IMG/VR virus record: IMGVR_UViG_3300025117_000222
Location: 1-24,247 of that record
Direction: 5' to 3' (one strand)
Source: a virus
Length of the DNA: 24,247 bases
Shown: piece after piece, positions 7,771 through 24,247 of the stretch
Layout: the number at the start of each line of letters is the position of its first letter
Position numbering within the stretch: position 1 is the stretch's first letter
Made by a program: the position numbers and the translations under genes
Notes under the pieces: generated by a model
Told to the model about the DNA's origin: nothing
What the model saw: only the letters and a program-made list of their open reading frames with translations
Databases searched by the model: none

Positions 7771-8097
7771 TTATGCCACCGTCATAAGTCCAGCTACGGC
7801 ATTGGTCGCTACAGCAGCTTGCCAATTTTTAATAAATGTAGCATTTTGGCTCAAATTTGAATTATCGAACGGAGCAGTAACGTTGCTCAGAGTAGAGCCT
7901 TCAATACAGAGTTTAACCGGCTTGTTAACGCCAACAGCAAGAACATAAACATTGGCGTCACTCAAAGCCAGAGTAAACGGAGTATTCCAAGCAGCGATTT
8001 GAGGAAGAACCATTGTATCAAATCCGAAAGCGGTACGGACATAACCGACTTTCACTAGGTCACTTTCAATATCATATCTGTAATTTCCCAATTCATA
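7771..8097 (-). CDS. Major capsid protein, exon 2 (C-terminal 108 aa)
   Basis: After intron removal this segment begins with the TAT codon at 8097 (YELGNYRYDIESDLVKVGYV...) and continues exon 1 in frame. It carries the typical C-terminal capsid strands 'TAFGFDTMVLPQ' and 'VNKPVKLCIEGS'. It has no SD and no proper start of its own (only an internal TTG), so it is not an independent gene. The spliced capsid protein would be 265 + 108 = 373 aa, normal for an HK97-fold shell protein. It ends at TAA 7771. Confidence 0.8.
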   Translation of the reverse strand, partial: YELGNYRYDIESDLVKVGYVRTAFGFDTMVLPQIAAWNTPFTLALSDANVYVLAVGVNKPVKLCIEGSTLSNVTAPFDNSNLSQNATFIKNWQAAVATNAVAGLMTVA

Positions 8098-8371
8098 CCC
8101 TCGGTTTCCCGATATTTATTAGGGTTTAGAGCACATCTTCATCCTTCAAAAGAAGGAGCATGGCGCTTCTGACTACGGGATTTCACCGCAGACATACTTC
8201 CTTTCGGAATGCTCGTTTCACCTTTTCTCAAAGAGAACTAGGCACAGAGTTATCGTGTCTTATAAGATTTAGACTTTCTCTGTTAGCAGGAAAAATAATT
8301 TCCCACACCCTGAATTTTCAGGTTCACCATGTTATTTTTTATTGCGTTACCGCAATAGCAGACTTAAATTA
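8098..8371 (-). ncRNA. Group I self-splicing intron in the major capsid gene (274 nt, no ORF)
   Basis: Exon 1 runs into a stop codon directly after ...LPAD, and the capsid sequence resumes 274 nt later in a compatible frame. P1 is visible: the exon end GCAGAT pairs with intron GTCTGC, giving the conserved U-G wobble at the 5' splice site. A P2 hairpin ATTGCG-GTAA-CGCAAT, a P5-like CCTGAA/TTCAGG, a P7 candidate ACAGAG/CTCTGT and distal hairpins TTCC-GAAA-GGAA, TCCTTC-TTTT-GAAGGA and TCGG-GAAA-CCGA follow. The intron would end in G (...CCGAGGG) as group I introns do. It has no coding capacity of its own; the nearby HNH gene may be its homing partner. Confidence 0.82.
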
Positions 8372-9166
8372 ATCTGCGGGTAAAACATATTGCAATGCGC
8401 GTTGCGTACCAGCAAGAATAACTTTTGCTCCACCGTTCCATGCAGAAACACGTTGCCCAAGAGCGATAAGGGCATCTTGACTATATCCAACAACCTTCAT
8501 GTAGGCATCAGTGGTAGTAGTCAAAGCACCCATTGCGGTAGCAAATACATTGTAGGTATCGACGGTCATCTGAGATTCAATCGACCTGATTGCTTTAGCA
8601 ACAAACTCGGCCAAAGATTCTTTGCCAGCCAGAACTTTATAAAGAGCAACTTGAACGGTAATTTGATGAGGAACTGGAACAACTGTCACAGTTGTATCAA
8701 ATTGTTTGTGAACTTCGCTGGCTTTTTGTCCGTGTCCAGACTTTGAAATAACAAACAGGTCACGACTTTTTATATCGAAACTGAAACTGTCCCCAAAACC
8801 GGCAAACTTTGTATCAGAGTATAAACCAATGGAATCCACTAGAACCTCTGGCAAAATTGTATCGATGAGAGCCGAAACCACCGCGAAACTGGCCCATCTC
8901 ACACTAGGATGAGAAGCCCATTGTTCCAATGGGATGCTTGGGTCAATATTAACCTGTGACACACGAGCGATTTCGCGCTTGAGAGCCGCATTCATTTCCA
9001 ATTCTTTTTCAGCAAAGGAAAGGGGAGTACCATCTTTTCTAATCTGAGAAAACTCTAAAGTTTTCTTGGAGTTGAAACTGGAATAGTGTCTCCAATAATC
9101 CACAAACATTTCGTAAGGGGACGTATCGGTAGCAAACTGTAAAACATTCAACGGAATTTTAACCAT
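8372..9166 (-). CDS. Major capsid protein, exon 1 (N-terminal 265 aa)
   Basis: GGAGG precedes ATG 9166. The sequence has features of HK97-fold shell proteins as placed in this gene order: an N-terminal arm with 'YEMFVDYWRHYSSFNSKK', a long helix region, and 'AWNGGAKVILAGTQRALQYVLP' immediately before the break, equivalent to the 'gtr' strand region before the A-domain. The reading ends at TAA 8369, inside the intron. Position after the protease-scaffold and two small structural genes supports the assignment. No frameshift is needed: removing 8098-8371 joins GAT to TAT and keeps the frame. Confidence 0.82.
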
Positions 9167-9195: not shown

Positions 9196-9741
9196 TTAAG
9201 CAACAGCCGAAACAGCAAATTTGTATGCCGCCACGCGCTGAGTCTCACCGATTGCACCAGTAGGCTTAGAAACGTATGTGGTTTCCAAATACTTGAGCGT
9301 CAAACCGCTTGCGGCAGCCGCAGACCAGTACAACTTGAATTGCCCCGATGTTACAACGGCATATGCGGATTCTACAACGGCACTTGCTGTACTGAGCGAA
9401 TCTGCGGTCAAGGTAATAATATCTCCAACTTGCGGACGGAATACGTCAATCATATCCCCGGCAATGTTGTAGAAATTCAACGGGTCAGAATCTAATCCTT
9501 TAAACTTATTGCTTCCAGAAACAGTTGTTACAATTTCTGGCGAATAAGCCATCCAGATATTGGTAAGCGTTCCGGCAGAAGCCGTAGCAACCCAAACTTC
9601 CGATTCCCCAGACGTGGCAGAACGAGTTAAAAGTTCAAAGACCCAGCCGTTATCAATATCGCTTGCGGAAACAGCAACGCGGTTTAAGGCATCAATGTCT
9701 GACGCGGCGATTTTATTGGCAACTATAATACCATGTGTCAT
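9196..9741 (-). CDS. Head structural/decoration-like protein B (paralogue of its upstream neighbour)
   Basis: This 181-aa protein has an SD (AGGAGG) before ATG 9741. It is a close paralogue of the protein encoded just upstream at 9776-10327. Both share 'SGESEVWV', 'NIWMAYSPE'/'HLWMAYSPE', 'GDMIDVF', 'PQVGDIITLT' and the C-terminal 'YVSKPTGAIGETQRV'. The chain is beta-rich, Ala/Ser/Thr-rich and lacks a membrane segment. Position between scaffold and major capsid genes suggests a capsid decoration or head-stabilising protein. That is inferred from context; no domain family was recognised. Confidence 0.6.
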   Translation of the reverse strand: MTHGIIVANKIAASDIDALNRVAVSASDIDNGWVFELLTRSATSGESEVWVATASAGTLTNIWMAYSPEIVTTVSGSNKFKGLDSDPLNFYNIAGDMIDVFRPQVGDIITLTADSLSTASAVVESAYAVVTSGQFKLYWSAAAASGLTLKYLETTYVSKPTGAIGETQRVAAYKFAVSAVA

Positions 9742-9775: not shown

Positions 9776-10327
9776 TTACGCAATAGCCGAAACTTCAAAA
9801 ATGTAGGCCGTCACTCTTTGGGTTTCCCCAATAGCACCGGTGGGTTTGGAAATATAGGTTGTAGCCAAATATTTCAAACTAAGTCCACTAACTGCGCCAG
9901 CAGCCCAATTCAACTTGAAATCGGCGCTTGTAGCAACAGCATAAGCAGAAGCCGCGCCAGTACCAGTTGTAAAAGCTTCACCCGTAAGGGTAATAATATC
10001 GCCAACCTGAGGCTTGAACACATCAATCATGTCCCCAACGGCGTTATAAAAATTCTGTGGGTCACTATCAATACCCTTGAATGTATTGCTTCCAGATACA
10101 ACCGAAACAACTTCTGGGGAGTAAGCCATCCAAAGATGAGTAAGTCCAGCAACAGCACTTGGAGCGGTTCCCACCCAAACTTCCGATTCGCCGCTGGTAG
10201 CGGAACGGGTAGCCAACTGCATCACCCAACCGTTATCCAAAGCGGTAGCAGAACGAGCTACACGATTATAGGAATCTACATCGGTAGCCTGAACTTTATT
10301 TAGAACTGCAACAGCATGAGTCGTCAT
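9776..10327 (-). CDS. Head structural/decoration-like protein A (tandem duplicate)
   Basis: This 183-aa protein has an SD (TAGGAGGAAA) before ATG 10327. It can be aligned along its whole length with the 181-aa protein encoded next. Differences are concentrated in the N-terminal third and in the 'ASADFKLNWAAGAVSGL' region. Two diverged copies side by side in a head operon imply retained, perhaps specialised, roles, for example two surface proteins at different capsid sites. The function is a positional inference. Confidence 0.6.
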   Translation of the reverse strand: MTTHAVAVLNKVQATDVDSYNRVARSATALDNGWVMQLATRSATSGESEVWVGTAPSAVAGLTHLWMAYSPEVVSVVSGSNTFKGIDSDPQNFYNAVGDMIDVFKPQVGDIITLTGEAFTTGTGAASAYAVATSADFKLNWAAGAVSGLSLKYLATTYISKPTGAIGETQRVTAYIFEVSAIA

Positions 10328-10349: not shown

Positions 10350-12173
10350 TTATTGATTTTTAGCGGGCCAGACAGACCCGTTGTTTGCTGGTTTTGGGAG
10401 GTTGGCGAACGGCATAGCATAGCGTTTAATCTTGCCTTCATCCGACTCCTTGATTTTCAACGCGAAATTAAACGCCGTTGCTTTACAATTATTCTGCCAA
10501 ATGTTGATTTCAGCAAAAGAATATTTTTCAGCATCTTCAACCATTGCCTTACGAGAATCGTCTGGAATCACAACCTTTTCGTCAAGTTCGCGAAAGGTTT
10601 GGTCAACAGCAAACTGTTTCTGTTGTGCTTCGATACCAGCCTTAAACTCCTTTAGGGCAGACATTTCGACACTCATTTCTGCCGATTTAGTGGCCATCTT
10701 GCACATTTTGGCATACATTCCACCTGCAACAACAGCAAAATCAGCCCCTTCGGATTTCTTCAATTCTTCGGCGGCCATCTTGCACATTTTAGCGGGTTCG
10801 TCCTCGCCAACTTCTTCTTCCATGTATGCAATCAAATTGGCAAATTCGGCAAATACAGATTTCTTTTCTTCCTCTTTTTTCTCTGCTGGAACTTCCGCTG
10901 CCATTTCTTCTTTCTTCTCTTCCGCTACAGGTTCTTTTTCTTCTTCCTTTTTTTCCTCAACGGGAGAGTCTGCGGGTTTTTCCGCCATTTCTACTTCTGG
11001 CTTTTTTTCTTCTTTTTCGTCAGCCATCTTTTCCTCCTTTGATTTTTCGACCCACGCAGTACCATCTTTATTGGGTTCGTGAGTTTCTTTAAAGTGTTTG
11101 ATGGCTGTCGGCCATCCATATTCTCCGCTAATTGCATCCGCTTGTTTCGCTATCGAATTAATCTGAGACAAGCTGAGCGGGGGTTTCCAATTTTTTAGAG
11201 ACGGATTAGCATCCTCGATATTCTTGTAAGGAAACGTAACCAGCCCTTCAACTTGAAAATAAGCAATTTTACGTTGGTCTATTTTATCCATAGATTCAAC
11301 CAATTTTTTCGACCAATTCAAGGCGTCTTTCCCGCCTCGAAGTTGCCAACCAATCCAATCTTTCCCCTCTTTGTCATCAAAATTATCCCCCGAATGACGC
11401 ATAAAATAAGTTGCCAAAGATTTGACTTTCTCTGGAATTATAGTCTCATTCTTTGAGAGAAATCGCCCAATACTTAGCGCAACGCTTGTTCCACCCTTTT
11501 TGTGTTTTACGTATAGAGATAATCCTTCCAAAGCAGCGTTTTTTACACCATCTGGGATTTTAAAATCCAGTTCGTCATAGCGCGAAGCAAACTCCGCGAG
11601 ATATGCATTTTGATATTCTTCGGTCTCTTCTTTCGCAAAAGATAGCAATTCCATTTCTGCTCCGGGCGAAGCCTCCGTCACAAAATCTCCTAGCGCGCAA
11701 ATGGCCGCATACCTCCAGTCGAGCAAATTCAATAATCCATCCGTCGTTTCTTCGGCATCCAATACTTCCATTTCAACTGAAACAGATTTGTTTTTTGTAT
11801 TAGTATCGGAAAAAACCCTTAGAAATTTTCCCGAATATTTCTTCCAAATTTTTGCAAAAACTCGAAGCGAAATCCTTCCCGAACCATCCCGCATTTCTAC
11901 AAATTCGGCACTGTTAGGAACAACAAATCCAGCCGGAACGGTTGTTTTGGCATTGTGACTACCAAAATCTCCAAAGTTAGAATTATATTCAAATATTAGT
12001 GGTTTTTCATATATGGTTGGAGCGGTTCTTTGCAATGCTACTAAATCGCAAGTTGTATCGTGGCGGGTTTTTCCTGTGCTAAAAGCGTCTATGCGAGCGG
12101 TTGCGAATTGACTTGTATCTAAGTCTTCCACAATTTCGGCATTAGAAACATCAAAACTTAATGTTTTATTCAC
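10350..12173 (-). CDS. Capsid maturation protease-scaffold fusion protein
   Basis: This 607-aa multidomain protein begins at GTG 12173 with GGAGGT 10 nt upstream. Residues ~1-190 resemble a phage prohead/XkdF-like protease region ('FSTGKTRHDTTCDLVALQR', 'VPAGFVVPNSAEFVEMRDG'). Residues ~205-300 resemble a small module seen in phage head proteins ('TYFMRHSGDNFDD', 'DWIGWQLRGGKDALNW'). 'YGWPTAIKHFKETHE' (~355-369) is another recurrent phage motif. Residues ~385-450 are an extreme Glu/Lys-rich segment, and the rest is helical, as in scaffolding proteins. Protease and scaffold in one chain are known for HK97-type phages. Catalytic residues could not be fixed by eye. Confidence 0.62.
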   Translation of the reverse strand: MNKTLSFDVSNAEIVEDLDTSQFATARIDAFSTGKTRHDTTCDLVALQRTAPTIYEKPLIFEYNSNFGDFGSHNAKTTVPAGFVVPNSAEFVEMRDGSGRISLRVFAKIWKKYSGKFLRVFSDTNTKNKSVSVEMEVLDAEETTDGLLNLLDWRYAAICALGDFVTEASPGAEMELLSFAKEETEEYQNAYLAEFASRYDELDFKIPDGVKNAALEGLSLYVKHKKGGTSVALSIGRFLSKNETIIPEKVKSLATYFMRHSGDNFDDKEGKDWIGWQLRGGKDALNWSKKLVESMDKIDQRKIAYFQVEGLVTFPYKNIEDANPSLKNWKPPLSLSQINSIAKQADAISGEYGWPTAIKHFKETHEPNKDGTAWVEKSKEEKMADEKEEKKPEVEMAEKPADSPVEEKKEEEKEPVAEEKKEEMAAEVPAEKKEEEKKSVFAEFANLIAYMEEEVGEDEPAKMCKMAAEELKKSEGADFAVVAGGMYAKMCKMATKSAEMSVEMSALKEFKAGIEAQQKQFAVDQTFRELDEKVVIPDDSRKAMVEDAEKYSFAEINIWQNNCKATAFNFALKIKESDEGKIKRYAMPFANLPKPANNGSVWPAKNQ

Positions 12174-12220: not shown

Positions 12221-12421
12221 TTATAAACACTTCGATAATTTCAACCAAAACGGAATTTCTTTAATTGCTTTTTTCAGCAACTCGGTTCTAGCAAACCCAA
12301 ACATCCTACCCTTTTTACAAAACAAAGGAAGACGCTTTTGCTCTATGAGCCAAGCGCTCACTAAACCATTGCAATAATAAATTTTATCTTCTGATAAAAC
12401 TTCTGGATTTAAGATATACAT
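12221..12421 (-). CDS. Small basic protein downstream of and in frame with the ferritin
   Basis: This 66-aa protein has the SD TAGGAG overlapping the ferritin's TAG stop, with ATG 12421 eight nt further on. It is Lys/Leu-rich and slightly hydrophobic ('FCKKGRMFGFARTELLKKAI', 'IPFWLKLSKCL'), with three cysteines, and no family was recognised. It is in exactly the ferritin's frame. Reading the TAG as Gln would make one 226-aa polypeptide in which these residues form a C-terminal extension of the ferritin. It may be translated both ways. Confidence 0.5.
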   Translation of the reverse strand: MYILNPEVLSEDKIYYCNGLVSAWLIEQKRLPLFCKKGRMFGFARTELLKKAIKEIPFWLKLSKCL

Positions 12422-12430
12422 CTCAATCTC

Positions 12431-12901
12431 CTAAGAAAAACTCGCGTCAAATAAAACCAAGTCCTTCACATTCCTTATTTTTAGAGCAAATTCTTGGGCT
12501 TCATCTTCCTCTTTCACCTGCTCAGAAAGCATTTCTAAAATAAAGGGTAAATCAACATATGATTTCAATTCCTGCGCCAACTCGTATAAACTTTCAATTG
12601 ATTCTGTTGTAGATTCCTCAATCTGAATATACAAATCTGCGATTTCAAAGTTTCCTGTTTTTATCTCAGGAGCGGGAACGTCTCCGATAGAAACACTTCC
12701 TCCAGTTCTATCGTTTATATATTGAATAAATCGATTGGCATGAACTTTTTCTTCTTCGGATTGTTTTCTAAAATAAGCGGATAATTTCTTGAGTTGTAAA
12801 TCTTCAAAATAAGATTCGATTTGACTGTATGCCAATTGATTCGAAAACTCTTTTACAACCTCTTGGCATAAAGCGTCATTAAGTGAATTTGATAAGTTCA
12901 C
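12431..12901 (-). CDS. ftn: Ferritin (non-haem, ferroxidase-competent) in the capsid operon
   Basis: This 156-aa four-helix ferritin starts at GTG 12901 behind GGAGG; earlier in-frame ATGs lie in or before a terminator hairpin. The ferroxidase ligands known from bacterial ferritins are all present: E18 (KEFSNQLAY), E51 and H54 (EEEKVHANRF), E95 (IEESTTES), Q128 and E131 (SEQVKEED). Helix-loop blocks match too ('YFEDLQLKKLSAYFRKQS', 'FIQYINDRTGG', 'SLYELAQEL'). Ferritins oxidise Fe(II) and store it in a 24-mer cage. Here it lies between a structural gene and the protease-scaffold gene, so expression should be late. The stop is TAG, in frame with the next ORF. Confidence 0.88.
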   Translation of the reverse strand: MNLSNSLNDALCQEVVKEFSNQLAYSQIESYFEDLQLKKLSAYFRKQSEEEKVHANRFIQYINDRTGGSVSIGDVPAPEIKTGNFEIADLYIQIEESTTESIESLYELAQELKSYVDLPFILEMLSEQVKEEDEAQEFALKIRNVKDLVLFDASFS

Positions 12902-12927
12902 GTCATTCACCTCCAAACATAATATAT

Positions 12928-12955
12928 AATCCCCCACCATTTTCGATGGGGGATT
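12928..12955 (-). terminator. Strong hairpin terminator upstream of the ferritin
   Basis: AATCCCCCA and TGGGGGATT form a 9-bp perfect stem with a 10-nt loop, followed on the minus strand by ATATATTATG. It lies between the 215-aa structural gene and the ferritin SD. Ferritin expression must therefore depend on read-through or on an unseen promoter. Confidence 0.7.
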
Positions 12956-12978
12956 AATTTGAAAACACACGAATTAAA

Positions 12979-13626
12979 TTACACCAAGAGAGTAATGGCT
13001 AAAATTTTTACGCCATTCATTGTTCCGGCAGGAGTAAAGAAAGACGCTTTTGCGGTAGCCCCAGTTGTTACACTGCCTGCATCAGCCGCCCCATCGAAAC
13101 TCTTTACAAGCACAACACTTGCATTCGGTACGGCAATTGGTAAACCAATTAGATTGCCAACACCGATAGACACAGTATCTCCAGAACCATTTGTTTTAGC
13201 CGGGAAATTAATGTTTGTAATTGTTTTAAACGCAACGTCGCCAGCAATTTCAGACGCGGCGCTTAGAGCAATCGTATCAGTAGCCGCAGCGTCATTTATG
13301 TCAGTTCCAGTAATAACCACATTTCCAGCAATACCACCGGCGTTGCCCTTTACTGTAGCAATACGAGGAAAATCAGGATTGGTAATACCTGTGGCTATGT
13401 CTACTGCTATTGCTCCCAAAGTATAGGCCGCATGAACATAGGTTGCTGTTCCAATGGCTGGTGTAACGCTATATTTAATGGCGGCCATAGGAGCAATAGA
13501 ACCGGCGGAAGGTGTTGCAACCGTTCCGTATTCCAGGGCATCAATACGAGCACCAAGAGATGCTCTTTGATTTGCCACACAACTATTTGTCAATCCATTT
13601 TTATAAGCCGTAGTAAGTCTAGTCAT
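12979..13626 (-). CDS. Head structural protein, Ala/Gly/Thr-rich, unknown role
   Basis: This is a 215-aa protein (MTRLTTAYKNGLTNSC...). ATG 13626 is chosen because AAGGAGAACTAAAA precedes it; an in-frame ATG at 13650 has no SD. The low-complexity, beta-rich chain holds 'FPRIATVKGNAGGIAGNVVI', 'TGTDINDAAATDTIALS' and 'ASFFTPAGTMNGVKI', patterns I associate with phage surface-exposed head proteins. Its position between portal and ferritin/protease and its strong terminator suggest an abundant structural product. No specific function is recognisable. Confidence 0.6.
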   Translation of the reverse strand: MTRLTTAYKNGLTNSCVANQRASLGARIDALEYGTVATPSAGSIAPMAAIKYSVTPAIGTATYVHAAYTLGAIAVDIATGITNPDFPRIATVKGNAGGIAGNVVITGTDINDAAATDTIALSAASEIAGDVAFKTITNINFPAKTNGSGDTVSIGVGNLIGLPIAVPNASVVLVKSFDGAADAGSVTTGATAKASFFTPAGTMNGVKILAITLLV

Positions 13627-13659
13627 TTTTAGTTCTCCTTTTATGCCCATGTATTTTTT

Positions 13660-13745: not shown

Positions 13746-15350
13746 TTACTTTTTGCCACCCCTTGCAATATTTCCCCCGGTTCCACGAGTATTTGCGCCT
13801 TCATCGCTTATCGCCGTATCGGATTTTGATGGTCTACCAGCACCGTCTGCGGGCATCTGTGCCCCTGAGATTATAGGTGTGAGTTTATCAACCCACTTAT
13901 TTGCTCTTCCTTCTGCAAGTTGACGTTCAAACTCGAAGGGAGACATGCCCAGCGCCGCCGAGATTTTTTGGGGAAGAACAATGCCAAGGGGAAGTAGTCC
14001 CATTTGTGCATCGAGGCGATTTTGACGATTGGTATAGAAGTTTGTACCTTCAAATTTGAAATGAAATTTATATTTTTTGGTAAACCTGTTTACATGGTAG
14101 TTCAAAAATGATTCAAATTGAGGATATAATTTTGTAGCAATTTGCTCATCCACGTTAAGTGATAATTGAGTCTCAATTGCGTTTGGCTTGATGTTTGAAC
14201 TAAATATGAGATTTGAGTTCACACCACTAGATGCAAGTGCAGTACGCATATATGAGTCGTACATTTCGTTCTCTGCCGGAAATGTAACTCCTTGCATTTG
14301 TTCAAGCGGGGCAGCCGTCATCGAGATGCTTTGGCTTAAAGCAGACCTGACCAATTGTAGGAACTTTCCCAAAGTTTCACTTGTCATGCTGATAGCATCC
14401 TTTACCTTTGCGTTGCTATCCTTCAAAAAGGGTACTTGGCCCACAAGAAGCCTGCTTGCCGCAGACATGTTGATATTCTTTTGAAGATTTCTCATAAGTG
14501 GTTGATTCAACAAATCCAAAAACAAGGGGCTAAAATAGGGAATTCTCGACGCAATTTCTTCCGTTCCCTTAAATACCCAAAAATCTTGCGGCTCTAAATC
14601 TTGCCAATAGACCCAAGAAGAATCCCCTCTTATTTCTGGGGGCAAAGACGGGACATATTGCGGATGTTTCCCATTTTGACCTCCCCAAATTTCATTATAC
14701 TTTCTAGCAAAAAATGGTGGGTATAAATTGATATCGACTCCTGGCAAAAGGAACCACATCATATTGAATGACCCCAAAAGTCCATAATCCCATCTTCCTG
14801 TAATTTTTGTATATGCGGGACTTGACGGTAACTCTTGCAAAACAAGCCTATCACTAAATCTTAAGGCACAAAAATACGCTTCATTTCTTAGAAGTTGACG
14901 AATCACCTCTGAAAACGATTTCTTGTAATCAAACTTATCAAAGAATTCTTGGACTGTCTTCAAATCCTTTTTGTATGCCCCAGAATCGTAATCTTTTTCC
15001 TCAACGTCCGAAGTATAAGTCATATCCCAAGAAAGCATTCCCGAAAGATAATCTATCAGTCGTTTATATGGCATTGACTGCAACTCGAAGTTTTCGGAGA
15101 ATCCTAGAAGCGCGATTTCCGATTCCTTGGGCGCAAGCATCGCGTTATTAAGCGTTGTTTCTGTTGCCACCATTGGGTTAAGCGAAACGTCTTTCATTCT
15201 CGCTGAAAGCAGGTCTGGAGTTAGAACATTCGAGTACCCGAATTGATTTTTAGCGAAAGTAGCAAAATCAAAAACTTGGTTAATTTCTTCTTCGCTCAGG
15301 AGGACTTCTTCCTCTTTTGGTTTTGATACATATCTTTTCTTTTTAGCCAA
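13746..15350 (-). CDS. Portal protein
   Basis: This is a 534-aa protein. Size, position directly downstream of the terminase (apart from an inserted endonuclease), and composition match phage portals, the dodecameric ring through which DNA enters and leaves the capsid. Visible features are an N-terminal basic stretch (AKKKRYVSKPK), the 'YKRLIDYLSGMLSWDMTYT' helix region, a wing region with 'LQELPSSPAYTKITGRW', a long 'KVKDAISMTSETLGKFLQLV' stem helix, and 'GVNSNLIFSS...NAIETQLSLN' near the crown. The C-terminal tail (~490-534) is Gly/Ser-rich and probably disordered. An SD (GGAGG) precedes ATG 15350. Confidence 0.85.
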   Translation of the reverse strand: MAKKKRYVSKPKEEEVLLSEEEINQVFDFATFAKNQFGYSNVLTPDLLSARMKDVSLNPMVATETTLNNAMLAPKESEIALLGFSENFELQSMPYKRLIDYLSGMLSWDMTYTSDVEEKDYDSGAYKKDLKTVQEFFDKFDYKKSFSEVIRQLLRNEAYFCALRFSDRLVLQELPSSPAYTKITGRWDYGLLGSFNMMWFLLPGVDINLYPPFFARKYNEIWGGQNGKHPQYVPSLPPEIRGDSSWVYWQDLEPQDFWVFKGTEEIASRIPYFSPLFLDLLNQPLMRNLQKNINMSAASRLLVGQVPFLKDSNAKVKDAISMTSETLGKFLQLVRSALSQSISMTAAPLEQMQGVTFPAENEMYDSYMRTALASSGVNSNLIFSSNIKPNAIETQLSLNVDEQIATKLYPQFESFLNYHVNRFTKKYKFHFKFEGTNFYTNRQNRLDAQMGLLPLGIVLPQKISAALGMSPFEFERQLAEGRANKWVDKLTPIISGAQMPADGAGRPSKSDTAISDEGANTRGTGGNIARGGKK

Positions 15351-15412: not shown

Positions 15413-16561
15413 TCATAATCCTAATTCTTTTGTAAGAATTTTCTCAATGTTATTAAATTCCCAATATGGAATTCTTAAAATATTTATTCTATTGTGTTTA
15501 CAAAACTCATTTTTTATAGCGTCTCTTTTTTTGCCAGCGTCAAAGTGTTTCTGCTCGACATCCTTTTTTCTGTAGGGTCTGTAATGCAATTCACCATCAT
15601 ATTCTAAAACAAAAGAAATTTTTGTTTTTTCACAATTTTCATATATTATAAAATCAAAGATTAAATGTTTTATATATTTGCAACCCGGTATTGATCTATG
15701 TTGATTGTAAAAAATACCATTTTTTCTTAAGAAAGAATCTATCTTCTTTTCCCCTTTGGATTCACAACACTTCGGACAACCCTTTCCGCCAACTCTATTG
15801 GCGCAATCGGAAGGATAACCATGACCGCACTTTGGGCAAATCCAATAATAACCGCCACTCCCCTGGGATGCAACACGAGACGGAATAGTTTTATTTTTAG
15901 AATAGTCCCATTCTTTTGCTATCTCTGGATATAAATATTCTAAATTATTATATTTTCCTATTCTGTGACTGGCACAAAATGGACACCCATTCCCTTTTGT
16001 AAACTGATGCCAAGACATTGGAAATTCTTTCTCGCCACAAACGGAACAATCGAACAATAAATCGTCTGATGTTCCCACATATTTCTGGTTTTCGCAAAGC
16101 GAAAGATGCAAATTATTTTTGTGCAACCATAATCTTATGTTTTCTATTGAATAATCATTTCCCTTGTTAACTATGGAAAATCCAATCCCGGATTCATAAT
16201 TTGTTCGTATGTGTTCAAATGAGAGGCTATAAAAATACCCATTGGAATCTTTAAATTTCATTTTTGTTTTTGCTGTAATGGCATATTGTTTTTCACAAAG
16301 AATCAAATCAATATCTCTATAACTAAACCACAAATGTATATTTTCTATTCTAAAAGGATTTGACATATGGAACTTGTCAAAAGAAAATCCCATTCTTATA
16401 GATTTAATGATGATTCTGAATCTTAATGCATATTTATACCCATCAGAATCGGAAAAATAAATTTGCTTTGGGGAAGAAAATCCTTCGTTATCTAGTAATT
16501 TCAAGTTTGTATTATTAAAAAATTCCTCCACAAATCTATTTGAATAATCTATTTTTTCCAT
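15413..16561 (-). CDS. Homing endonuclease with zinc ribbons and a PD-(D/E)XK/Vsr-like nuclease domain
   Basis: This 382-aa protein has AGGAG before ATG 16561. Two ~60-aa repeats (~36-95 and ~100-160) each carry 'GY-Y-L-F' and 'IEN-LW' and probably contact DNA. Two zinc ribbons follow: C172/C175 with C193/C196, and C242/C245 with C262/C265. The C-terminus (~271-382) is nuclease-like: 'LIFDFIIYE' (D303), 'VLEYDGELHY' (E320, H326), 'KKRDAIKNEFC' and 'ILRIPYWEF'. This is the arrangement of Vsr/EDxHD-type homing nucleases. It is wedged between terminase and portal, two conserved genes, with its own promoter, structured leader and terminator. It is presumably a selfish element that drives replacement of the allele lacking it. 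Confidence 0.8.
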   Translation of the reverse strand: MEKIDYSNRFVEEFFNNTNLKLLDNEGFSSPKQIYFSDSDGYKYALRFRIIIKSIRMGFSFDKFHMSNPFRIENIHLWFSYRDIDLILCEKQYAITAKTKMKFKDSNGYFYSLSFEHIRTNYESGIGFSIVNKGNDYSIENIRLWLHKNNLHLSLCENQKYVGTSDDLLFDCSVCGEKEFPMSWHQFTKGNGCPFCASHRIGKYNNLEYLYPEIAKEWDYSKNKTIPSRVASQGSGGYYWICPKCGHGYPSDCANRVGGKGCPKCCESKGEKKIDSFLRKNGIFYNQHRSIPGCKYIKHLIFDFIIYENCEKTKISFVLEYDGELHYRPYRKKDVEQKHFDAGKKRDAIKNEFCKHNRINILRIPYWEFNNIEKILTKELGL

Positions 16562-16658: not shown

Positions 16659-16687
16659 ATTATACCACAAACTTCTAATCTTGTCAA
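16659..16687 (-). promoter_or_regulatory. Consensus sigma-70 promoter for the second homing endonuclease
   Basis: TTGACA, a 17-nt spacer and TATAAT, with TGG before the -10 (extended -10). The -35 box lies just after the terminase TAG stop; its TTGA contains the backup TGA in the terminase frame. The spacer end AGTTTGTGG matches the promoter at 7735-7763. Confidence 0.9.
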
Positions 16688-16689
16688 TC

Positions 16690-18513
16690 CTACATTACCA
16701 TCGTAACCGCCAAAATTGCTTCTTCATCACTCATCCCATCTTCTTGTCTCAGCAAATCTCTATCAAGAACCGTTGAAACAAAATAGTTAAGATATGATAT
16801 GGCGGTATAACGGTCTTTTAGTCCATTACCCTCATCGAGTTTAATTGTTCCATTAACTATACTCATCTCCAAATTGAGACATTCCCCAACGAGGAGATTT
16901 GATTGGATAAATGGATGCAAAAACCACGTCCTCATAGATAAATCATCTTTTGTTTCCAAAAACTCTTTGGCGTTTGTTTTAATTAAATGGTCTTCCGCGT
17001 CCAAGTCGCTACAAAGAAAATCCCAGAGTTTCTTCTGCAACACTCCCCTGAAAGCAACCGCTATTTCACTATTTAATTTTTGAGTCGCTGAAATAGGAAA
17101 TACAACAGGAAGAGCGTTTACTCCAAGCGTTCTATCTCTAAGTTCTTCTTTTACCTTTTCATCAACGTGCGGAGATTCCAATACGGTAAATGGAGGATAT
17201 TCAACCCCTCTTTCCGAGTTAACCGTTACGCTTGACATGCTGTCAAATATGGAAATCCCAACCTGCTGAAGATCAAGCACCAAATAATCTGCGCCGAAAT
17301 CATAAAAAAGCTCTTTTATTCTCAACGCTTGGGATATGGTATTACTCCCATGCGAACTTTCCAAATAGCAAAGTTTTCGGTTATAGCCGCGATGCGTCGG
17401 AAGCAGTCTGGCGCAACCTATAATACTATTATCGTTTGCTCGGTTTGCCCGACTAGCAATATCTACGGCGATAACCCTTATCTCCCCATCCTGTTTTGGA
17501 ATACCATATGGATTTTTCTTAGAAGCATTGTCCTGACGCATAGGATAAAAAGCATTTTTGATATTTCTAGGAAACATTTGAGATTTGAAATATGCTTTTC
17601 CAGATTGCCCAGCCGGAATATTCTCATTCTCCAAACTAAACGAGATTGGGTCTGCTTGTTCCCTTTCTGCTTCTATTTGTTTTCTGGTTTTTATTTTATG
17701 AAAAACCGTAATCAAATAATCAGTGGCAAAAAACCCGGCGCTTTTTCCTTCTAGCATCATCTTTATTGTGGATACACAGTCTAGCCACCACCACTCTGAT
17801 TTGAACCCGCAAGAACTGAGACTAATTTTTTTAGGCTCCTCGTCGGGATAATCGGAGTATTCTGGGTTATCTTTAAATTTGGCGGGTCTGACATAGAGAA
17901 AAGGAATAAAAACCGTATCTACAATCTCTTTTTTCAAAAGACGGAATTCATCTAAAATAAGCGTGGTTGCTCGATTTCCTTTTCCGCCCTCGTTGGCAGC
18001 AACAACCCTCATAATGCTTCCGTTCGCAAAAATGGCTTCGTAATTATTCAGATTCGCAGTAAGAGAAATAATCTCTCTTTCAAGAATGGGAGAATCGTTT
18101 CTCATTTGTTGAACCTTGGAGCTTAAAATAAGCCCAGCCTGTTTAATTGTTGAACTTCCGATAACCACCAAACTCCCCGGATAAAGTATGCATCGGGCAA
18201 TACTGTATGCAGCGCACAAAAACGATTTCGCGCTTGCGCGCGAGCAAACACTCGTAAACACATCCGACACAGACATTAAATATAGCCAAATTTTTTGATA
18301 GGGAAAAAGTTTTATTCCCATATACATTTCAATAAACAGTCCGACATTTCTACGAAACAAGGTGTTCCAAGCGATAATATTTTCTCTTTTTTGCGTTTCT
18401 ATGTCATTTGCAAGAACCATGTCTTTTCGTTTTCTAAAAACATTTTTTGTTTTAGAGTCTTTGCGAAAATCATCCTGAAATGGTCTGTTCGGTCTTCCCC
18501 GTTTCTGGTTCAT
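16690..18513 (-). CDS. terL: Terminase large subunit (packaging ATPase and nuclease)
   Basis: This 607-aa protein starts at ATG 18513, six nt after GGAGG and overlapping the small subunit gene by 44 nt; an ATG at 18552 has a poorer SD. ATPase motifs, numbered from this start, are a Walker A-like 'CSRASAKSF' (~90-98), Walker B 'LILDE' (~185-189) and a coupling motif 'SLSSCGFKS' (~231-239). The RNase H-like nuclease has D351 in 'VIAVDIASRA' and D414 in 'YLVLDLQQVG'. TerL docks on the portal, pumps DNA into the prohead and cuts the concatemer. The stop is TAG, then one sense codon, then TGA. Confidence 0.92.
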   Translation of the reverse strand: MNQKRGRPNRPFQDDFRKDSKTKNVFRKRKDMVLANDIETQKRENIIAWNTLFRRNVGLFIEMYMGIKLFPYQKIWLYLMSVSDVFTSVCSRASAKSFLCAAYSIARCILYPGSLVVIGSSTIKQAGLILSSKVQQMRNDSPILEREIISLTANLNNYEAIFANGSIMRVVAANEGGKGNRATTLILDEFRLLKKEIVDTVFIPFLYVRPAKFKDNPEYSDYPDEEPKKISLSSCGFKSEWWWLDCVSTIKMMLEGKSAGFFATDYLITVFHKIKTRKQIEAEREQADPISFSLENENIPAGQSGKAYFKSQMFPRNIKNAFYPMRQDNASKKNPYGIPKQDGEIRVIAVDIASRANRANDNSIIGCARLLPTHRGYNRKLCYLESSHGSNTISQALRIKELFYDFGADYLVLDLQQVGISIFDSMSSVTVNSERGVEYPPFTVLESPHVDEKVKEELRDRTLGVNALPVVFPISATQKLNSEIAVAFRGVLQKKLWDFLCSDLDAEDHLIKTNAKEFLETKDDLSMRTWFLHPFIQSNLLVGECLNLEMSIVNGTIKLDEGNGLKDRYTAISYLNYFVSTVLDRDLLRQEDGMSDEEAILAVTMVM

Positions 18514-19471
18514 CAAATACCTCCAAGTTCGGTTCATCGTATTCCGTGCCATCCTCTTCGGATATATTAAAATCGCGTGAGCCAGTAACGAAGTTTTTTA
18601 AGGGGCGAGTAATAAATCTTGCAATATATTCTTCAATCCCCTCAAAATCTCGGAACATTTCCTTGTTCTTATAGTATTCCGCGGGGGTTGTTTCTTCGAT
18701 GTTTTTTATAAACATTCCCCAAGTTTCAACGCCTTTTCCTGAACTTGCCGCTGTTTGTTGAGCGGGGGTAAGCGCACCATTTTTCAAAAGTTCTTGCATG
18801 GACTTCAGGATGCTGTCTGGACTTTTTCCTTCTTTTCTAGCGTTTTCTAACTCTAATTCTTTTAAACAAATTTGTTTCATAAAGAATCGCTCGGCCTTAT
18901 TTTGATGAGAATAGCTTTTTTCCCATTCGGCCAATGTTTTTTCTAAAAATCTGTATTCATCTGGGGTCAACCCATCTCCCCATTGTTCAATCACCGATTC
19001 CGAACCGGTAAAATCAACGGGGTCACTTCTTTCCGGCATACTTGCATTTTCATACTGAAAAGTCAAATCTCCTCCATGCCCACCCTTATCTATGCTGTCC
19101 GAACCCCTCATGGTTGAAAGCAACTTTGCCTTGTAAATTCCAAATACCGTTAGGTCATCGCCCAATTTCTCTTTATTTTTTAGTTGTGTAACCGTTGCCT
19201 GAGCCGCAGATTCCGTATACAGAACATTCAAAATTCGACAGCATTTATACAATGCCCGCTCGACTGAATGTTCCACGTTGTATTGACCAACATAAATTTC
19301 TCCAATACATTCACGGCATACGGACATAATGCCATTCTGGTCAATAAACTTGTCTGTCGCTAAATAAAACTCCTTTGATGATTTAGTCTTACAACATTTA
19401 CGACAATAAGCGGGAAATACTTTCCCATCTGCGCTAATTAACGACTTTTTACGCCGCAAAACTTTTGGCAT
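18470..19471 (-). CDS. Terminase small subunit-like protein with a zinc-finger N-terminus
   Basis: This 333-aa protein has AAAGGA upstream of ATG 19471. The N-terminal region has a CxxC...CxxC zinc site ('YCRKCCKTKSSKEFY', 'MSVCRECIGEIY'). A helical region ('HSVERALYKCCRILNVLY') and a charged central/C-terminal half ('YRFLEKTLAEWEKSY', 'FFMKQICLKELELENARKEG') follow. Zinc-finger proteins of this plan lie just before the large terminase in related phages and act as the DNA-recognition subunit. Overlap with terL supports a coupled pair. The DNA-binding role is inferred from family and position. Confidence 0.7.
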   Translation of the reverse strand: MPKVLRRKKSLISADGKVFPAYCRKCCKTKSSKEFYLATDKFIDQNGIMSVCRECIGEIYVGQYNVEHSVERALYKCCRILNVLYTESAAQATVTQLKNKEKLGDDLTVFGIYKAKLLSTMRGSDSIDKGGHGGDLTFQYENASMPERSDPVDFTGSESVIEQWGDGLTPDEYRFLEKTLAEWEKSYSHQNKAERFFMKQICLKELELENARKEGKSPDSILKSMQELLKNGALTPAQQTAASSGKGVETWGMFIKNIEETTPAEYYKNKEMFRDFEGIEEYIARFITRPLKNFVTGSRDFNISEEDGTEYDEPNLEVFDEPETGKTEQTISG

Positions 19472-22218: not shown

Positions 22219-22248
22219 TGTTGATCTCCTATTGTTTAGTCTTTATTG

Positions 22249-22319
22249 CTGGCAGAAGTTGAATCGAACAACCGACTTCTAGTTTAGAGCTAGATATTTT
22301 ACCACTAAACCATCCGCCA
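22249..22319 (-). tRNA. Amber suppressor tRNA (anticodon CTA), glutamine-type body
   Basis: This is a full 71-nt cloverleaf. Acceptor TGGCGGA/TCTGCCA (7 bp), D-arm GTTT-AGTGGTA-AAAT, anticodon arm TCTAG-CTCTAAA-CTAGA (5 perfect bp) with CTA at 34-36, variable AGTC, T-arm GGTTG-TTCGATT-CAACT. The anticodon reads UAG. The weak U1-A72 pair, G73 discriminator and U35 are known glutaminyl-tRNA synthetase identity elements, so it probably inserts Gln. No CCA is encoded. It is transcribed between a 64-aa ORF and the exonuclease. Confidence 0.9.
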
Positions 22320-23720: not shown

Positions 23721-24247
23721 TTAAAACTCATATCCCATAACATCGAAACTCGCCGTCGTTGCCGCCTGCGGGGTTGTACATTTAATGCCAAAAATGTTTG
23801 TTGAAGCACCGATTTTTGCACCATCCATTGGGAATACAAGAATCATTTCGCTTGTTGTTGTAATAGACATAAAGTCTCTTGAAAAACTCCAATCGTCCGC
23901 GTTAACATTGAAACCGAATGATGCTTCCAGAGTCGCCAACGCGCCATTTGCGTTTCTGACAACAACGTGCGTGACAGCACAACTTTTTCCGGTTGCCACA
24001 GTATGAAGGGTTGTTTTTGTCCCTACGCTCATATCCGCGCTTGTGACCGTTGCCAAAAGTGAAATCTTTCCAGCTGTTCCCGTTACCCCAGTAGAACCAA
24101 CCGCTCCAGTCACACCGGTAGAACCAACTGCGCCAGTCACACCCGTAGAACCAACTGCGCCAGTCACACCTGTACTTCCAACTGCTCCGGTTATACCAGT
24201 ATCCCCTTGCGAACCAGTTACGCCCGTACTTCCGGCATCCCCAGTTA
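23721..24247 (-). CDS. Collagen-like fibre protein, C-terminal part (5' end beyond the window)
   Basis: The reading frame is open from the right edge of the window to TAA 23721. The visible N-terminal part is a Gly-X-Y tract of the type GSTGVTGAV repeated (~1-50). A C-terminal, beta-rich globular domain of about 115 aa follows ('[20 protein letters not shown]', '[16 protein letters not shown]', ending 'FDVMGYEF'), probably a trimerisation or receptor-binding head. Collagen-like phage fibres are trimers. There is no true start in the window; an internal GTG at 24167 lies inside the repeat and is not a start. Confidence 0.78.
24080..24247 (-). repeat. Tandem 27-nt repeats encoding collagen-like Gly-X-Y triplets
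   Basis: Near-identical 27-nt units (GGT GTG ACT GGC GCA GTT ...) encode GVTGAVGST over and over. Such DNA repeats expand or contract by slipped replication or recombination and so vary fibre length. Confidence 0.8.

Follow-up and report, generated by a model that had tools for sequence, protein, structure and literature searches.

What is a ferritin of the cellular kind doing in the head operon of a phage? The question is raised by a 24,247-base virus record from IMG/VR, a probable fragment, which we have analysed as a whole (hereafter the window). An earlier note on this DNA had claimed a ferritin with an intact ferroxidase centre, and the gene with its ribosome-binding site is laid out as follows:

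12431..12901, minus strand: ferritin coding sequence, 156 aa, with a GTG start (12901), a TAG stop, the ligands E18, E51, H54, E95, Q128 and E131, and Tyr25
12910..12914, minus strand: Shine-Dalgarno sequence GGAGG, 8 nt upstream of the ferritin GTG

The upstream sequence containing the GGAGG reads tatgtttGGAGGtgaatgac. The protein is confirmed as a non-heme ferritin (Ftn type) with a complete ferroxidase centre, and the claim holds in full. It matches the Pfam Ferritin family (PF00210) with E=2.4e-19 over residues 9-143, its top PDB matches are the ferritins of T. maritima and P. furiosus, and a profile search against the PDB finds the P. furiosus ferritin at 2e-29; the four-helix ferritin domain is thereby recognised by both the Pfam and the PDB profiles. 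All six ferroxidase ligands and the conserved tyrosine that characterise Ftn are present. The second-iron ligands of bacterioferritin (Bfr), of the E127/H130 type, do not occur in the phage ferritins, where every sequence covering these positions has Q128/E131. Compared with cellular Ftn (P. furiosus 2jd6/2x17, T. maritima 1z4a, A. fulgidus 1s3q), the phage ferritins match the same Pfam family along the whole helical bundle and share the six ligands and tyrosine, but they form phage-specific clades and sit in a head operon. Their C-terminus, the part that in the 24-mer cage of Ftn provides helix E at the fourfold axis, is also shorter, with 25-32 residues past E131 in the complete sequences versus 38 in one representative Bacillota ferritin.

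The genes around the ferritin lie on the same strand in the order TerL, HNH, portal, 223-aa protein, ferritin, 66-aa ORF, 607-aa protein, two phrog_4147 paralogues, major capsid protein (MCP) and tail genes:

16690..18552, minus strand: terminase large subunit, TerL (phrog_2 and phrog_9, Pfam TerL)
15413..16561, minus strand: free-standing HNH endonuclease (phrog_559)
13746..15350, minus strand: portal protein (phrog_2739, E=3e-42)
12979..13650, minus strand: putative structural protein of 223 aa, Ala/Gly-rich
12221..12421, minus strand: ORF of 66 aa, a separate gene, DUF5659-like by its position in phage TR-TP1 and also present in relatives without ferritin
10350..12173, minus strand: 607-aa protein in the scaffold position (phrog_3313), a possible protease-scaffold by position only
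9776-10327 and 9196-9741, minus strand: two tandem phrog_4147 paralogues, putative head decoration proteins
8369..9166, minus strand: N-terminal part of the MCP (phrog_4088; a homologue is annotated as MCP in Enterocloster phage PMBT24)
8108..8381, minus strand: probable group I intron splitting the MCP gene (full model E=0.017, below the Rfam gathering score)
7771..8091, minus strand: C-terminal part of the MCP

With TerL, portal, MCP and tail genes all on the strand of the ferritin, its placement inside the head operon is borne out. The more precise statement that it lies between a structural gene and a protease-scaffold gene is right as to position, but the 66-aa gene intervenes and the name "protease-scaffold" is purely positional; a Pfam search with the 607-aa protein and its counterparts in relatives gave no match. 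The gene for the 223-aa protein is found in relatives sometimes in the portal-ferritin interval, sometimes elsewhere and sometimes not at all. Further along the operon, phrog_4147 is present just before the MCP in one copy in several relatives and in two in others. The MCP gene is split between the codons for ...VLPAD and NYRYD..., and the relatives have an uninterrupted MCP of ~370 aa.

How constant is this arrangement? L numbers denote the loci compared, among them those from scans of uncultivated viral contigs seeded with the portal, the ferritin or the 607-aa protein. The portal-seeded scan placed a ferritin between the portal and the scaffold-position gene in three of four readable loci (L004, L005 and L007, with L008 lacking it), and a scan with the ferritin profile gave 16 loci, all 16 with an identical neighbourhood. 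Taking the 607-aa protein as the seed, a choice that can enrich for ferritin carriers only through linkage, we found the ferritin at the site in eight of eight loci. A wider scan with the portal profile yielded 68 loci, of which 11 have the ferritin; among the rest, many have another protein in its place and many have neither. Absence was called only on contigs with a complete interval from portal to scaffold-position gene. No contig carries more than one copy of the ferritin, and a 123-kb relative without it at the site does not have it anywhere else on its contig. The earlier note had proposed a search for ferritins beside MCP or portal genes in related phages and would have given up its reading had the ferritin been missing from virions and its gene not been conserved at this site in any relative; the same site is in fact used in many viral contigs, so the second of these does not hold.

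Finding ferritins in the viral contigs took alignment-based scans, a single-protein scan with the window ferritin having given no match. Among 50,697 phage records, the only tblastn match of the window ferritin was MT839617 (L009, MT839617.1; "Bacteriophage sp."), which we rejected as a phage ferritin: it looks like bacterial DNA, with the ferritin beside desulfoferrodoxin-like and thioredoxin-reductase-like genes. Two other phage ferritins gave a single match each, MT838721 and MT838998. A portal scan of genome contigs, as a route to the host, led to one MAG contig (Scybalousia) whose distant portal is too weak a link to use. A portal homologue in a MAG (L112) has one in-frame TAA in its ORF and is perhaps part of a decayed prophage. 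The terminase gene of L005 (4065-6959) is interrupted by an insert with an HNH-like ORF, and the TerL genes of L010 and L027 also match piecewise.

The sequences of the phage ferritins argue for a working enzyme. We aligned 30 distinct ones, down to ~22% identity with that of the window and with three rows truncated by contig ends. Twelve columns are invariant among the covering rows, and they include all six ligands and Tyr25 (hypergeometric P=5e-8, a guide rather than a strict test given that the rows are related). Five of six close ferritin pairs have dN/dS values of 0.06-0.16; the sixth (0.275) is inflated by an exchange of the C-terminal tail. Since the ligands are invariant and dN/dS is low, the metal centre is under strong selection, which implies catalysis; the ferritin is evidently maintained and probably active. 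The tail comes in two swappable forms. The ferritins at L022:3891-4376 and L024:7989-8480, for example, are near-identical up to their tails, LMPEWWQCVIWDATGG against LCGEDWYRVKVWSDSIGG, which marks the tail as a swapped module.

A second kind of protein, of ~168 aa, occupies the site in Enterocloster phages, in Thomasclavelia phage TR-TP1 and in many other contigs (for example L049:6628-7137, L010:9677-10183 and L066:7527-8045). Nine of 15 such sequences match Pfam Ferritin, at best with 5e-9, and when compared as a profile with the phage ferritins, the 15 align over 146 collinear columns at P=1.1e-5; an earlier comparison with five gut sequences only was weak (P=0.0026). The ferroxidase ligands are not kept in this family, whose invariant residues are F19, N22, D26, H46, H51, D58, Y83 and D116, and because those ligands are missing its function would not be ferritin-type iron oxidation. 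Perhaps the alternative His/Asp set binds metal at a different site, but this is a guess. Representatives have been described: PMBT24 ORF39, annotated as a ferritin without experiment, its homologues in the Enterocloster phages CB473P1 and CB457P1, and TR-TP1 gp13 all belong to the ferritin superfamily and hold the identical operon position (PMC11035940). They differ from the window ferritin in that the six ferroxidase ligands are not conserved, and the ferritin-domain annotation of TR-TP1 gp13 was made by structure alignment. As judged from the profiles, the site is a ferritin-superfamily slot with two chemistries.

The occupant of this slot has changed repeatedly. On a portal tree of 68 rows, a partly ferritin-seeded set, 28 rows have the ferritin, 20 the ligand-less type and 20 neither, and the ferritin label requires seven changes. 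Near neighbours differ: L100 has none and L090 and L092 have the ferritin, L081 has none and L069 and L070 have it, and L061 has the ferritin where L067 has the ligand-less type. Such presence and absence at one site is the pattern of a phage auxiliary metabolic gene. Because close relatives are often without the gene (L008, L078, L081, L087 and L100), an obligatory part of the capsid is argued against; on this comparative evidence the ferritin is a dispensable add-on rather than an essential capsid component. In the ferritin tree the phage sequences fall on one side of a branch separating them from 30 Bacillota ferritins (support 100/96, with only Bacillota sampled). They form two clades whose membership does not track the portal tree (L034, L035), and ferritin alleles appear to have been exchanged at a fixed site.

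With respect to expression, about half of the loci have the ferritin start at -4 to +14 nt from the portal stop, which suggests that the gene is translationally coupled to the portal and makes co-expression with the head genes likely. Late timing may be assumed since the neighbours are head genes. Two candidate signals were found in the window:

16659..16687, minus strand: match to a sigma-70 promoter, TTGACA-17-TATAAT with TG (12/12 consensus, extended -10), at the end of TerL and upstream of the HNH-portal-ferritin-capsid genes
12927..12956, minus strand: strong hairpin with a stem of 13 pairs, lying between the 223-aa gene and the ferritin (leader dG z-score -3.2), terminator-like or mRNA-stabilising

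On balance we lean, if only slightly, towards an accessory, late-made and catalytically competent Ftn whose task in the infected cell is to oxidise and store iron, because this combines strict catalytic conservation with dispensability. An ancestor of this phage group would have captured a cellular gene of Ftn type and kept it as an accessory gene at one place in the head operon, between the portal and the scaffold-position gene. Probably made late, by translation coupled to that of the portal, the protein would use O2 or H2O2 to oxidise Fe(II) at the diiron centre, which is intact, and would keep the ferric product inside an assembled ferritin cage. Late in infection this could leave less free iron and less Fenton damage to phage DNA, or could simply hold the iron. 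The Dps-like proteins of Lactobacillus plantarum phages (PMC6669764) are likewise ferritin-superfamily proteins encoded by phages, with a proposed role in protection from oxidative damage, but they are of Dps rather than Ftn type and are encoded near replication genes. Two points weigh against an accessory iron-storing ferritin: a purely metabolic role leaves the fixed portal-adjacent position unexplained, and many relatives have at this very site a homologue whose function would not be ferritin-type iron oxidation.

Other phages encode internal head proteins next to the portal, T4 gp67/gp68 and SPP1 gp7 being encoded at a comparable place. It is conceivable, though we think it rather unlikely, that the ferritin and its ligand-less counterpart are themselves virion-associated, either packaged into the prohead or placed at the portal vertex, and give the particle iron or ferroxidase activity. 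We keep such a role open because of the fixed portal-adjacent slot, the frequent translational coupling to the portal and the non-ferroxidase homologue at the same site; the alternative versions at an identical position and a C-terminal tail that is shorter than the cellular one and exists in two swappable forms are also in keeping with it. A loose precedent is a Vi01-like phage, in which a ferritin predicted by Phyre2 was among the proteins detected by virion mass spectrometry (PMC10892097). However, that protein is a different one and the evidence is weak, and the same phage infected iron-uptake mutants as usual (PMC10892097). Moreover, the close relatives listed above do without the gene, and no cargo-loading peptide was recognised by eye in the tails of the phage ferritins. 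We found no virion proteome of these phages in the literature, which we covered in part. More speculative still is the idea that the portal-scaffold site is reserved for a virion protein with the ferritin fold, with an active iron-loading ferritin in or on the head in some lineages and a re-tooled His/Asp version in others; if true, the particle would carry its own iron chemistry.

That the ferritin fold serves only structure or assembly, for instance as a core or portal-associated helper whose metal centre is kept only for folding stability, is improbable in our view. The superfamily does stay at the site after the ferroxidase ligands have been lost, but without catalysis it is hard to see why precisely the catalytic ligands and Tyr25 should be invariant, and phages with no such gene retain the rest of the head operon.

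The earlier note had also seen here a hint of a link between phage capsids and encapsulin iron stores. On such a view the capsid would be an iron compartment loaded with ferritin as in encapsulins, and the two would be tied by evolution. We consider this very unlikely. Encapsulated ferritin (EncFtn) is a short two-helix monomer; the window protein has 156 aa with Pfam Ferritin over residues 9-143, a full-length classical Ftn. Read by eye, the C-terminal tails resemble the start of helix E rather than a cargo-loading peptide, and no encapsulin-type motif was seen in them. The shell, too, differs: here it is a virion MCP in a normal terminase-portal-MCP-tail operon, and the presence of the ferritin is facultative. 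What the two systems share is the genetic linkage of an HK97-type shell gene to a ferritin-superfamily protein that oxidises iron; encapsulins, which combine HK97-type shells with ferritin-like cargo, probably derive from HK97-type phages (PMC8346489). Finally, a transient capture from the host or a contig artefact with no role is scarcely credible: ferritins related to the phage ones are common in cells (171 of the 296 Bacillota genomes scanned), but the phage genes occupy the same site in many independent metagenome contigs, under strong purifying selection and in phage-specific clades.

Phage genes of the ferritin superfamily are usually known as single annotations. In this group, a classical ferritin whose ferroxidase centre is strictly conserved has been kept over long evolutionary time at one slot of the head operon, a slot that alternates between this ferritin, its allelic clade, a ligand-less homologue and nothing. 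Because cultured relatives carry a protein at the site, the old idea of iron inside phage particles becomes directly testable.

Some minor features of the window deserve mention:

22248-22319, minus strand: tRNA with a CTA anticodon (amber-reading; ARAGORN: Pyl)
23721-24245, minus strand: protein with collagen-like repeats (Pfam Collagen E=3e-9), cut off by the end of the window

This tRNA, together with the 69 open codons past the ferritin TAG, raised the possibility that amber readthrough extends the ferritin into the 66-aa ORF. We rejected this, as in L004 a TAA stop precedes the 66-aa gene, which is a separate ORF, and other relatives have this gene but no ferritin. Across the window, TAG serves as the stop of many genes, and none occurs within the long ones.
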